Of a stretch of 64,000 bases of DNA, positions 24,214 through 28,359 are shown piece after piece. The translations under genes were made by a program, and so were the position numbers. The DNA is from Thermosphaera aggregans DSM 11486 (lineage in GTDB: Archaea > Thermoproteota > Thermoprotei_A > Sulfolobales > Desulfurococcaceae): contig NC_014160.1 of the NCBI RefSeq assembly GCF_000092185.1, forward strand, positions 434,001-498,000. The letters are read 5' to 3'. Positions within the stretch are counted from its first letter, which is position 1. Every line of letters starts with the position of its first letter. The notes beneath the pieces were generated by a model. It worked only from the letters and a program-made list of their open reading frames with translations. It ran no database searches and was not told the DNA's origin.

Positions 24214-24573
24214 TCATAGCTCAGGAATCACCACCTCCGCGGCCTGTATTCCAAGCTCTGAAAGTTGCCTAATCAGCCCTTGTGCCACTTCCCTACGTGT
24301 TTCGGGGAAGACGACGTATATGTGGCTAGGATGGTGGCTTTTAAGAGCCTCTAAACCCTGGCGTACAACGTAGAATGACATAGTCAATAAATGGTTTAAA
24401 CTTATAATTGATTTAACTTTCTCTATGTTTTCTTCAACTTTCCCACTATCCATCCAGACATAGATGGTGAGCCTTTTCTTACGCTCCCTAACGCTAATTT
24501 TCAGCAACTCGTTGTAAAGACGTTGAACATCTGAACCTGGTATGAGAAGCACTGGAACACTTGCATCGAACAT
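24214..24573 (-). CDS. Unknown small alpha/beta protein next to a winged-helix regulator
   Basis: The 119-residue protein starts at ATG 24573, immediately after the winged-helix gene stop (2 nt away), so the two are translated together. The predicted order of strands and helices (VPVLLIPG, LTIYVWMD, MSFYVVRQ, HIYVVFPE, AAEVVI) looks like a small Rossmann-like fold with no metal or nucleotide motif that I can name. Position between a regulator and a radical SAM gene gives no firm role. A ligand-sensing partner of the regulator, comparable to a split sensor/HTH pair, is one idea only. Confidence 0.65.
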   Translation of the reverse strand: MFDASVPVLLIPGSDVQRLYNELLKISVRERKKRLTIYVWMDSGKVEENIEKVKSIISLNHLLTMSFYVVRQGLEALKSHHPSHIYVVFPETRREVAQGLIRQLSELGIQAAEVVIPEL

Positions 24574-24574
24574 T

Positions 24575-24934
24575 TCATTCACCCTCCACGTCCCCGAAGG
24601 CTTCACTGTAGAGTCTTCTAAACTCCGGGTTATCAGTAATATTCGCGAGCTGGTTCAAAGAATCAATTAGAACGTGAATATGTTCTCTCAGCGCTTTCAA
24701 CAAGCCTTGATTATTAACAATGAAATATTTCTTTTTCCTCTCTACGTAGAAATCAACGATATCCCTTGCGTGAAGTAGTTTTAAAGTCTGAGACAAATGG
24801 CTTTTAGCATAACCCGTTTTTCTAGATAACTCTGTAAGGCTAAGAGGCTTTCGACTTGTCAGTAAGACAGCTAGAACTACCCCTGCGACTGGAGGGAATC
24901 CCAGAAGGGTCATTAATTTCGCGAGCGATTTCAT
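24575..24934 (-). CDS. Winged-helix (ArsR/MarR-like) transcriptional regulator
   Basis: This is a 119-residue DNA-binding protein. The N-terminal 75 residues form a winged helix: LTELSRKTGYAKSHLSQTLKLL is the helix-turn-helix, and the wing is VDFYVERKKKYFIVNNQG. The C-terminal helix (LREHIHVLIDSLNQLANI) probably dimerises. It lies downstream of the CARF-like/PIN gene with a 73 nt gap and overlaps functionally with the next gene (2 nt apart). The effector is not visible; there is no Cys pair of the metal-sensing ArsR type. Confidence 0.82.
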   Translation of the reverse strand: MKSLAKLMTLLGFPPVAGVVLAVLLTSRKPLSLTELSRKTGYAKSHLSQTLKLLHARDIVDFYVERKKKYFIVNNQGLLKALREHIHVLIDSLNQLANITDNPEFRRLYSEAFGDVEGE

Positions 24935-25007: not shown

Positions 25008-26645
25008 TTAAGTCAGCATGCGGGTAACTCTCACTACGGGTGCATCGCTTCCTTTCAAACTTTCTAGACTCATCCTCAACTTATCCTGCGTGGAAACCAT
25101 ATCCAGATTTACGAATAAGCTACTAACATAGAGTAGGTTTGCCAAAACGATACTGGCATAGTACCTGGAGAACATTCCGTCAATATTTATTGTCTTGTGC
25201 TGGTGACCAACGTACACGCAGAGAACTTTATCGCTACAGACATTGATTGTTTGCCACGCATTGTAAGCTTTTCTATCAGCGGTCATCAGAATTGCTTTTT
25301 CCTCGAGAATGTTCTGGGCGACAACAGCTATCGATGCTTCACAGGGAGGGCTGACGGCTGGTATTTGAAAACTTCCATAATATTTTTTAACTTCATCAAT
25401 GGCTCTATTGGCGAGTAAAGCCATTATATAAGAATATAAAGACAAGCCCTTTGCCTCTCCAGCAGATTCGGCAACTTTTCCATTGATCTCTGCTTCAGCG
25501 CAAATCGGTATATATGTTCTCAACCCTTCAATCGATGACCATGGATGGCCGTTCTTTATGCTAGCTTTTAAAAGAGTCACGTGGAATCCTTGGTAAAACA
25601 TATTGGTATCTGGGAGGAGGGCTATCGGCTTCTTAACCTGTCTAACCATGTCGATTAGAAAGCTGTGAATTTTCCAGCCCTTATACTCTCTATACTCCCT
25701 GGATTGATCTTCTCTGCGTATTTCAACACGGGAAGGCTTCATTTCTTTGACAACGAGGTCAACAGCCCCAGTGTATCTCTGGATCTGCATCAAAACCCTA
25801 TCCAACAATGTTCTATCAACGTCACTATTCTGTTCATGTATCATGTTCGATATGATTTTCCAGCTGTCAAACATCATGGCCACGGTTTCCTCGGTCGGGC
25901 CTGCCTTAGTATCTATGGTTAAAAGTAGTTTCCTGTCCTCAATACCTGGTGTGGATGCGTAAATGCTTAACTTGTCTCCATCACTAGGTAGATGCCTCTG
26001 TCCTTCATAGAATGATTCAACCAAGCCCTTACTTGTAATACTGTTTAGAAGATTAGATATCTCCATGAACACGTGCTTGCTGCCCTGCCATTTTATTACG
26101 TGAGGTAGGTTAATATTCTGGTTGCTTGGATAAGGGGTTTGGGCCTGTTCGATTTTTCCATGAATGTAGACCTTGTGAACCCACCTGGGGCTAAATGGAT
26201 AAGGGGGTATTCCAGGCAGGGGTAATATGTCAACGTGTGTGAAAACGATATCGATATTTAAACGATTCTTTTCCTCTATTATCCCAGCAGCAAAAGGGCC
26301 TGACATGGCTGATATGTCTACATACAACCTGCTTAGTTTTCCTTCGAGGGATTTAATGAGGCTTCTAGTTAAAAAGAGATTTTCAAAGATATTGTCTCTC
26401 AACAGACTCTTTGACATAAGGTTGTCGAAGTAGATATTAACATCCGTTGGAAAACCATCCATTACATTCCTAATGCTTTCAGCGGTTTCCCTTCGCGTAA
26501 TGATTATAAAATCTTTTACGTCAAGTTCTTCCTTCATCCTGCTTATCACTGTTGGGACGACGAATGGGTGAATGTCAACGGGAAGTAACATGGTTTTATC
26601 TGGGCTGATCTTTCCTCCGAGCAAAATATTAATAAAAGATTCCAA
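25008..26645 (-). CDS. Large protein with N-terminal CARF-like domain and C-terminal PIN nuclease domain
   Basis: I start at TTG 26645, where GAGGTG sits 6 nt upstream and a TATA-like element lies at the right distance; a TTG at 26684 is the longer alternative. In the 545-residue form the first 160 residues look like a CARF sensor: strand TMLLPVDIHP, strand FIIITRRET, and a LYVDISAMSGP segment at the place of the CARF ligand loop. The C-terminal third is PIN-like: PDTNMF (Asp 346), acidic CAEAEING (about 382-389), and MTADRKAY (Asp 457). This would make it a ligand-gated RNase. No CRISPR genes are nearby. The CARF call rests on pattern only. Confidence 0.6.
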   Translation of the reverse strand: MESFINILLGGKISPDKTMLLPVDIHPFVVPTVISRMKEELDVKDFIIITRRETAESIRNVMDGFPTDVNIYFDNLMSKSLLRDNIFENLFLTRSLIKSLEGKLSRLYVDISAMSGPFAAGIIEEKNRLNIDIVFTHVDILPLPGIPPYPFSPRWVHKVYIHGKIEQAQTPYPSNQNINLPHVIKWQGSKHVFMEISNLLNSITSKGLVESFYEGQRHLPSDGDKLSIYASTPGIEDRKLLLTIDTKAGPTEETVAMMFDSWKIISNMIHEQNSDVDRTLLDRVLMQIQRYTGAVDLVVKEMKPSRVEIRREDQSREYREYKGWKIHSFLIDMVRQVKKPIALLPDTNMFYQGFHVTLLKASIKNGHPWSSIEGLRTYIPICAEAEINGKVAESAGEAKGLSLYSYIMALLANRAIDEVKKYYGSFQIPAVSPPCEASIAVVAQNILEEKAILMTADRKAYNAWQTINVCSDKVLCVYVGHQHKTINIDGMFSRYYASIVLANLLYVSSLFVNLDMVSTQDKLRMSLESLKGSDAPVVRVTRMLT

Positions 26646-26714
26646 ATCCACACACCTCGACGATCTACTAAAAATAATTTTCAAGGTTATAATAAAAATA
26701 TGATTTCGCTATGA

Positions 26715-26975
26715 TTATAAAGCAACGCTGTCCTGTTGTGCGCTACCAGTATTAAACAAACCTTCCGCTGCAAGAGAATAAATTTCTTTTATCACAATAT
26801 TTTTCAGCAAGTTGATCATAGAAAGCGTGGCCTCCTTGTCCTCAGGGCTCATATCAGATGACTCAACTTCGGCCTCGTAGACTTTTAAGTCCTCGAGCAT
26901 TGTAATATACTTTAGCATTAAAAGATTCGTTAAATCAGTGGCTCTAGATATTATTCTATCACTCACATCTAGCAT
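26715..26975 (-). CDS. Small helical protein, unknown function
   Basis: This 86-residue (ATG 26975) or 89-residue (GTG 26984) protein is predicted to be almost wholly helical, with an acidic centre (EVESSDMSPEDKEAT). A TATA-like TTTAAAAG at 27010-27017 would start transcription near 26988, so the leader is very short. It lies 69 nt upstream of the CARF-like/PIN gene in the same orientation and divergent from nikR. No family is recognised. It may be a partner or antitoxin-like protein for the PIN protein, but nothing in the sequence proves this. Confidence 0.55.
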   Translation of the reverse strand: MLDVSDRIISRATDLTNLLMLKYITMLEDLKVYEAEVESSDMSPEDKEATLSMINLLKNIVIKEIYSLAAEGLFNTGSAQQDSVAL

Positions 26976-27047
26976 TTGATTCACCAGTAGCTTATCCGAA
27001 GGATACTTCTTTTAAACTAGTATAGTTAGTATTACTAGAGAAATATT

Positions 27048-27166: not shown

Positions 27167-27571
27167 GTGAAAGGGGTTAAAGTAGGAGTCTACATCCCAG
27201 CTGACATTTACGAGGAGATTTTAGAGTTTTCTTCAAAAGGGGAAAAGACTAGTTTAAGCAGACTTGTCCAAGAGTCCTTGAGAACTTACATATATATGAA
27301 TCAACCTTTAAGGGAGGGAAATGCTGTTGGAACGATTAATGTAGTTTACAACCATGAGAAGAAAAATATTGACAGCCAATTAACAGACCTTCAACACGAG
27401 TTTCTCGAAATAGTTGTTTCAACACTGCACATCCATTTAGATGAGAAGACATGCATGTTGAACATTACTGTTAAAGGTGAGGGAAAACGCATTTCAGAAT
27501 TCATTAATAAGCTGAGAATGCTTAAGGGCGTTCTTCTTGTTAATCCAACCTTGTTTAAAATAAAAGAGTGA
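27167..27571 (+). CDS. nikR: NikR-type nickel-responsive regulator
   Basis: The 134-residue protein has an N-terminal ribbon-helix-helix (VKVGVYIPADIYEEILEFSS...LSRLVQESLRTYI) and a C-terminal ACT-like nickel-sensing domain. The four square-planar nickel ligands of NikR are conserved in the right order: QHEF (His 77), HIH (His 88 and 90) and Cys 96 in EKTCMLN. The start is set by the TATA box at 27136; GTG 27164 is equally possible. It overlaps the downstream unknown gene by 1-4 nt. It probably controls nickel uptake or its own operon; nickel matters for NiFe hydrogenase, whose maturation gene hypD lies at 37291. Confidence 0.9.
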   Translation: MKGVKVGVYIPADIYEEILEFSSKGEKTSLSRLVQESLRTYIYMNQPLREGNAVGTINVVYNHEKKNIDSQLTDLQHEFLEIVVSTLHIHLDEKTCMLNITVKGEGKRISEFINKLRMLKGVLLVNPTLFKIKE

Positions 27572-28359
27572 TGGGTATGACTACAGTCTGCATCCTAGGA
27601 GTAAGCATGGATGATGCTGTAAACATATCACACGGATTAGTGATAAGTGGTGAAAAACCTATCGTATACAACTGCGATTCCCAAGAGAACCTGATATACA
27701 AAATAAAAAGCACGTGGATAATTAAGACTCATGGGAAAGAGTACCGTGTAGGCGATGAAGGCGATATTGTTGTTAACAAACCCTTCAATGGGTTGTTCTA
27801 TACCGGCGTTTCAACCGGAGAGTTAACAGGTTTTCTTACAAGGGAGGCGTTAGATGAAAGGATTTTCATAGGGGTTTTAACAGGTTTCCTTTTGAAAGGT
27901 CTGGAGTTAAACGATGCTCTTCAGAAAATTTCAGAGCTATACGAGTATTGGTCAACGGATCCTTTAGAGGTTGTTTCAAGGAGGATGACAACCTTTAAGT
28001 GTCTCGACAGATTATTCGACGCTATCAATAGATTTTTAACTCACGCATCATTTCAAACAGTTGGGAAGGGGGGAGTTGTCTTCTCATGCATAAATGAAAA
28101 AGGATTATCCTATGAGGTTGAATTATTCTTTTCCCCAAACTATAAGGATATTGTAAGAATGGAGAAGATTCAAAGAATAAGTGTTAAAGATTCACTTACA
28201 GAAGATGAATCGGCTATTGTCTGCTTTGAACACCCTCTATTTGATGATTTAAGAGTTTTTGAACTAGACGGGAAAAAATGGTTTTGCTTAACTGGGAAAG
28301 AGCCTGTTAGAATTACAGTTGAGATAGAGAAAAAATTGAATAGGGTAAGCCTACTTTAA
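27571..28359 (+). CDS. Unknown protein translationally coupled to nikR
   Basis: The 262-residue soluble protein overlaps the nikR stop codon (TGATG; other starts are GTG 27568 and ATG 27577). It opens with a strand-helix unit (VCILGVSMDDAVNISHGLVIS) and a Tyr/Asn-rich strand. A helical middle follows (LTGFLLKGLELNDALQKISELYEYW), and the end is beta-rich with two Cys (VCFEHP, WFCLTG). I recognise no family, signal peptide or membrane segment. Tight coupling to nikR suggests a role in nickel sensing, nickel delivery or the same regulon. The 3' end overlaps the convergent DtxR-type gene by 9 nt. Confidence 0.75.
   Translation: MGMTTVCILGVSMDDAVNISHGLVISGEKPIVYNCDSQENLIYKIKSTWIIKTHGKEYRVGDEGDIVVNKPFNGLFYTGVSTGELTGFLTREALDERIFIGVLTGFLLKGLELNDALQKISELYEYWSTDPLEVVSRRMTTFKCLDRLFDAINRFLTHASFQTVGKGGVVFSCINEKGLSYEVELFFSPNYKDIVRMEKIQRISVKDSLTEDESAIVCFEHPLFDDLRVFELDGKKWFCLTGKEPVRITVEIEKKLNRVSLL

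Follow-up and report, generated by a model that had tools for sequence, protein, structure and literature searches.

A CARF-PIN gene of Thermosphaera aggregans and other Desulfurococcaceae, uncoupled from type III CRISPR

The genome of Thermosphaera aggregans encodes a CARF-PIN protein of the CARF_m12 type, and its gene is a core gene of the Desulfurococcaceae that does not travel with a type III CRISPR locus. The fusion itself is not new, as PADLOC already catalogues it as CARF_m12--CARF_PIN; what is new is that this CARF-PIN is uncoupled from type III CRISPR. Computational analysis finds that the protein has two domains with conserved catalytic residues, that the gene descends vertically under purifying selection, and that no Cas10 is recognisable; at a probability of roughly one half, the protein is considered to be a Cas10-independent, ligand-gated nuclease of the CARF-PIN type.

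The gene and its domains

The gene lies at 459.0-460.7 kb of the 1,316,595-base genome and was analysed in a window of 64,000 nucleotides, the whole stretch of DNA to which the coordinates below refer. Its reading frame is a single long minus-strand frame, mechanically listed as 25008-26684; GTG at 26651 is the likely start of a 547 aa protein, and is favoured because the starts of homologues and a preceding GAGGTG motif agree on it. The parts of the gene are as follows.

25008..26651, minus strand: CARF_m12-type CARF-PIN gene, probable GTG start, 547 aa (ORF list, PADLOC match, alignment, model)
26157..26651, minus strand: CARF domain, residues 1-165, Rossmann-like (secondary structure of the model, Foldseek, alignment)
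25632..26156, minus strand: middle region, residues 166-340, mixed alpha/beta in the model, exceeding the length found in CARF_m3-PIN and without family match
25197..25631, minus strand: PIN nuclease domain, residues 341-485 (separate model, Foldseek)
25608..25610, minus strand: D348 (PDTN), predicted to bind metal and invariant in all three CARF-PIN families aligned (m12, m3 and a third one)
25488..25490, minus strand: E388 (CAEAEING), predicted to bind metal and invariant in the same three families
25338..25340, minus strand: predicted acidic residue E438 (PCEAS), invariant in m12 and mostly D in m3
25275..25277, minus strand: D459 (TADRKA), predicted to bind metal and invariant in the same three families

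The preliminary description had proposed a CARF-like sensor fused to a PIN nuclease; the motifs that it cited (IIITRRET, VDISAMSGP, PDTN, CAEAEIN and MTADRKAY) are all found in this minus-strand frame, and the presence of a CARF-PIN gene in T. aggregans is confirmed. No Pfam or NCBIfam model matches the protein. It is matched by PADLOC CARF_m12--CARF_PIN (PDLC01979) over residues 16-555 of 558, with an E-value of 5.4e-192 and 637 bits, and belongs to that same family; the PADLOC text gives neither a function nor a CRISPR context for it. The frame is not a chance ORF, given the homologues in 22 of 60 other sampled genomes, the invariant motif residues and a dN/dS of ~0.05.

An AlphaFold2 model of the full-length protein, made from 15 sequences, has a mean pLDDT of 85.6 and a pTM of 0.89, and displays CARF strands at residues 20-25, 47-52, 72-75, 108-112, 134-141 and 160-164. 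In a Foldseek search with this model the N-terminal part matches the CARF proteins Can2, Card1 and Cam1 and the ring nuclease Sis0455 (probability 1.00), which bears out the CARF fold proposed earlier for this region. The strand-4 motif of CARF_m12 is D112-x-S/T114-x-x-x-G118, with D112 and G118 invariant in an 18-row alignment; the canonical CARF signature after strand 4, [DN]X[ST]XXX[RK], is common but not universal (PMC4012209), and CARF_m12 does not have it in full, as the final K/R is replaced by the invariant Gly. The basic residue is also mostly missing from the RtcR and RV2818 CARF families, for which other ligands were considered possible (PMC4012209); later work identified 5' tRNA fragments with a 2',3'-cyclic phosphate end as a ligand of RtcR (PMC7790460), which, however, is a transcription activator and has no nuclease domain. 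Elsewhere in the CARF part, E41, Y151, P152, P155 and R156 are common to the CARF-PIN families, and R38 is nearly so.

The C-terminal region was modelled separately (residues 324-494; pLDDT 87.5), and its best Foldseek match is the PIN domain of human EST1A (E 6.4e-4); 3ix7, PAE0151, T5 flap endonuclease and SiRe_0806 are also matched, and the PIN assignment made from the acidic motifs thus stands. The acidic residues are predicted to sit at PIN-domain positions along the secondary structure of the model. Residues D348, T349, N350, E386, E388, E438, T457 and D459 are invariant across 18 CARF_m12 members; D348, N350, E388, T457 and D459 are still invariant when m3-type CARF-PIN proteins, 16-20% identical, are added to the alignment, as are D348, T349, N350, E388, T457 and D459 in the alignment with the third CARF-PIN family.

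Structural relatives and known CARF systems

In the PDB the full-length model finds its best fold matches in SiRe_0806 from Sulfolobus islandicus, of which four chains align over the full length with E-values of 1.6e-9 to 1.3e-8; cA4 is bound in three of the four. SiRe_0806 is probably itself a CARF-PIN protein, as both halves of the T. aggregans protein match it. The two have the CARF-then-PIN layout in common (PDB 9JXW, apo, and 9JXX, with cA4; E 1.6e-9, TM 0.58 of target), however the crystal shows a SiRe_0806 that is ~130 aa shorter, and the identity in the structural alignment is only 10%. S. islandicus, the source of SiRe_0806, has type III systems. Sequence searches of the PDB find no solved homologue of the protein, SiRe_0806 included; a broader CARF-PIN profile retrieves weak CARF matches only from the PDB (Can2, E 0.007; Sis0455, E 0.1), and sequence comparison links SiRe_0806 to neither the m3 nor the Sulfolobaceae-type CARF-PIN proteins. 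A search of IMG/VR finds no viral relatives, and viral structures give no significant match to the model.

The CARF_m3--CARF_PIN proteins of Sulfolobales and relatives have a homologous PIN domain and a detectably similar CARF domain; E41, the YPxxPR motif and the catalytic residues are common to m3 and m12, and R38 is nearly so, whereas the identity between the two families is ~16-20% and the middle region of m3 is shorter. CARF_m3--CARF_PIN is found together with type III in six of seven cases, a small sample (p = 0.08), which is more often than m12. Can2/Card1 resembles the T. aggregans protein as a ligand-gated nuclease with a CARF fold; its nuclease domain, however, is a different one, of the PD-(D/E)xK type, and it is tied to type III CRISPR and activated by cA4. 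Further CARF-PIN-like proteins are encoded elsewhere in the order (L180:4756-6054, minus strand; L174; L178), one of them with a canonical DLTGGTK motif, which suggests more than one CARF-PIN lineage in the class.

Distribution, CRISPR context and neighbouring genes

CARF-PIN matches occur in 23 of 61 sampled genomes, all within a single family, taken to be the Desulfurococcaceae from its named loci (Thermosphaera, Staphylothermus, Thermogladius, Desulfurococcales MAGs); of 37 genomes of this family, 23 carry the gene. When 229 genomes of the class are searched with a profile, the same carriers are returned, along with weak matches to other CARF proteins. The CARF-PIN gene tree agrees broadly with that of RpoB, with genera grouped alike, and absences fall mainly in two clades; the gene is therefore considered to be inherited vertically with loss, and it is not essential to the Desulfurococcaceae, as other genera have lost it. 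T. aggregans and strain 3507 (G001) are both without Cas10; comparison of the two gives an omega of 0.045 (NG86) or 0.062 (YN00), a rough estimate since dS is near or above 1; the neighbouring metG gives a comparable 0.030-0.058. Purifying selection on CARF-PIN is thus strong in this Cas10-less pair. Two copies from multi-contig assemblies are irregular, one with an in-frame TAG (L015, from G009) and one with an N gap and repeated sequence (L023, from G016).

The gene had been described as lying away from any CRISPR locus, and this is correct: the nearest locus found is of type I-A, at 760.6-777.8 kb and ~300 kb away, and comprises Cas6, Cas3, Cas8a, Cas5a, Cas7a, Cas1 and two Csa3 proteins that both contain CARF. 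The sole CRISPR array of the genome (~87 repeats, 772.2-777.8 kb) lies beside it. Long frames overlap in the Cas1/Cas4 region of this locus (G000:C1:769223-772111), and the Cas1 match falls within a 599-codon open frame, which is much longer than usual. A check for type III CRISPR elsewhere in the genome, as had been recommended, found no Cas10 by TIGR02577 or PF22335 and no type III RAMP protein; a maximum-sensitivity search of the whole six-frame set with a purpose-built profile (12 Cas10 proteins; positive controls at E 1e-150 or better) also found no Cas10.

Both Cas10 and RAMP proteins are missing from 14 of the 23 carriers, T. aggregans among them. Type III is present in 9 of 23 carriers versus 5 of 14 non-carriers, so that the 37 Desulfurococcaceae genomes show no association between CARF-PIN and type III (Fisher p = 1.0). 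Six near-complete genomes (at most 8 contigs) have CARF-PIN without type III; in the carriers G002 (Thermosphaera), G015, G018 and G023 the type III genes are far from CARF-PIN or on other contigs. A very diverged Cas10 could have escaped detection in the carriers. Neither Cas1 nor any Csa3 above cut-off is seen in carriers such as strain 3507, G011 and G021, the family searches of strain 3507 having covered its whole genome. A seven-repeat CRISPR array of this strain (L228:11515-11902) lies beside a guaA-like gene, with no adjacent cas genes.

Diadenylate cyclase is absent from all 40 Desulfurococcaceae genomes searched. The only SMODS match in T. aggregans was rejected as a second-messenger synthase, since the match when checked is the CCA-adding enzyme; each of the other genomes with a SMODS match has a single one of similar length, which is assumed to be the CCA-adding enzyme too.

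Three small genes lie around CARF-PIN in the window.

26715..26984, minus strand: gene of an 89-aa helical protein, upstream of CARF-PIN and often near it within the family
24575..24934, minus strand: winged-helix gene, 119 aa, downstream of CARF-PIN on the same strand, a neighbour only in Thermosphaera
24214..24606, minus strand: 130-aa ORF adjoining the winged-helix gene, fast-evolving, Thermosphaera only

The order 89-aa gene, CARF-PIN, winged-helix gene, 130-aa gene, radical SAM and metG is kept in three Thermosphaera genomes; in Thermogladius the 89-aa gene, radical SAM and metG are retained and the winged-helix gene is missing, and genera beyond these two have little of the neighbourhood in common. 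The preliminary description had pointed to the winged-helix regulator and small proteins beside CARF-PIN when it raised an independent defence or stress system. As partners in such a system these genes are not supported: the winged-helix and 130-aa genes are beside CARF-PIN only in Thermosphaera, and the winged-helix gene is rejected as a partner on that ground; the 89-aa protein, which has no Pfam or NCBIfam match above cut-off, has family matches in 32 of 40 Desulfurococcaceae genomes, some of them without CARF-PIN, and is rejected as a co-inherited partner. No constant partner gene is seen across the compared neighbourhoods. The 130-aa ORF evolves faster than its neighbours, with 60% identity and an omega of 0.21 between two Thermosphaera strains, and a 123-aa gene of no detectable similarity occupies its place before radical SAM in Thermogladius. 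On the plus strand, at 27568-28359, a 263-aa protein with no family match above cut-off follows a NikR-like regulator; it is also fairly fast-evolving (omega 0.18-0.21).

Possible activation and function

The earlier interpretation stands in its CARF sensor, its PIN nuclease and the absence of type III, while the neighbouring genes fall away as partners; the independent second-messenger defence or stress system that it raised is conceivable. In the scheme proposed here, for which we infer the RNA substrate, dimerisation, gating and physiological role, the CARF domain would bind an oligonucleotide-like ligand, probably as a dimer, and ligand binding would release the C-terminal PIN active site (D348, E388, E438 and D459). 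The metal-dependent PIN nuclease, most likely an RNase and assumed to cleave RNA on the precedent of other PIN domains, would then slow growth through this cleavage. As most carriers, T. aggregans among them, have no recognisable Cas10 to supply the ligand, the likely trigger would be a stress- or infection-derived oligoribonucleotide, which may be a cyclic oligoadenylate made by an unrecognised synthase or else an RNA end, for example on a fragment with a 2',3'-cyclic phosphate. The wider proposal of a CRISPR-independent Desulfurococcaceae pathway, in which a core CARF-PIN nuclease is gated by a ligand from a source other than Cas10 (be it a cyclic oligonucleotide made by such a synthase or the end of a damaged RNA), is put forward as tentative.

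The protein may instead be an ordinary type III effector, with a CARF domain that binds Cas10-made cA4, which carriers without type III would keep as a leftover or ready for a frequent re-acquisition of type III. SiRe_0806 was solved with cA4, PADLOC places CARF_m12--CARF_PIN among CARF proteins, and nine carriers have type III genes, including the four named above; since these nine carriers have type III and the structural relative binds cA4, classic cOA signalling could still operate in them. This explanation is nonetheless somewhat unlikely, as the gene and type III do not co-occur (p = 1.0), the genes are far apart or on separate contigs in those four genomes, purifying selection is strong between two Cas10-less strains, and the K/R of the canonical CARF pocket is an invariant Gly in CARF_m12.

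A constitutive RNA-processing or RNA-decay enzyme, whose CARF-like domain would bind RNA or protein without gating, would agree with the core-gene pattern, slow evolution and vertical descent, and PIN domains commonly act in RNA processing; however, CARF-nuclease fusions are usually regulatory, SiRe_0806 binds cA4 with the same layout, and CARF-PIN is no general housekeeping gene, because two whole clades are without it. Even with RNA fragments as a known CARF ligand in RtcR (PMC7790460), such an enzyme is unlikely. It is highly improbable that CARF-PIN is part of the cell's own type I-A system through a signal in common with the Csa3 regulators: T. aggregans does have type I-A, including two Csa3 proteins with CARF, and is without Cas10, but the locus is ~300 kb from CARF-PIN, and carriers such as strain 3507, G011 and G021 are without Cas1 and without Csa3 above cut-off. 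The Cas1 and Csa3 searches suggest that CARF-PIN is kept in strains that have lost every I-A gene.

The Cas10-independent, ligand-gated nuclease preferred here bears on the usual account of CARF effectors, in which they respond to an alarm signal from Cas10; the maintenance of a CARF nuclease by strong selection in complete genomes without recognisable Cas10 points to another activator or another role of CARF. Thermosphaera makes the question testable, with strains that have and strains that do not have type III and with the gene at the same chromosomal place.
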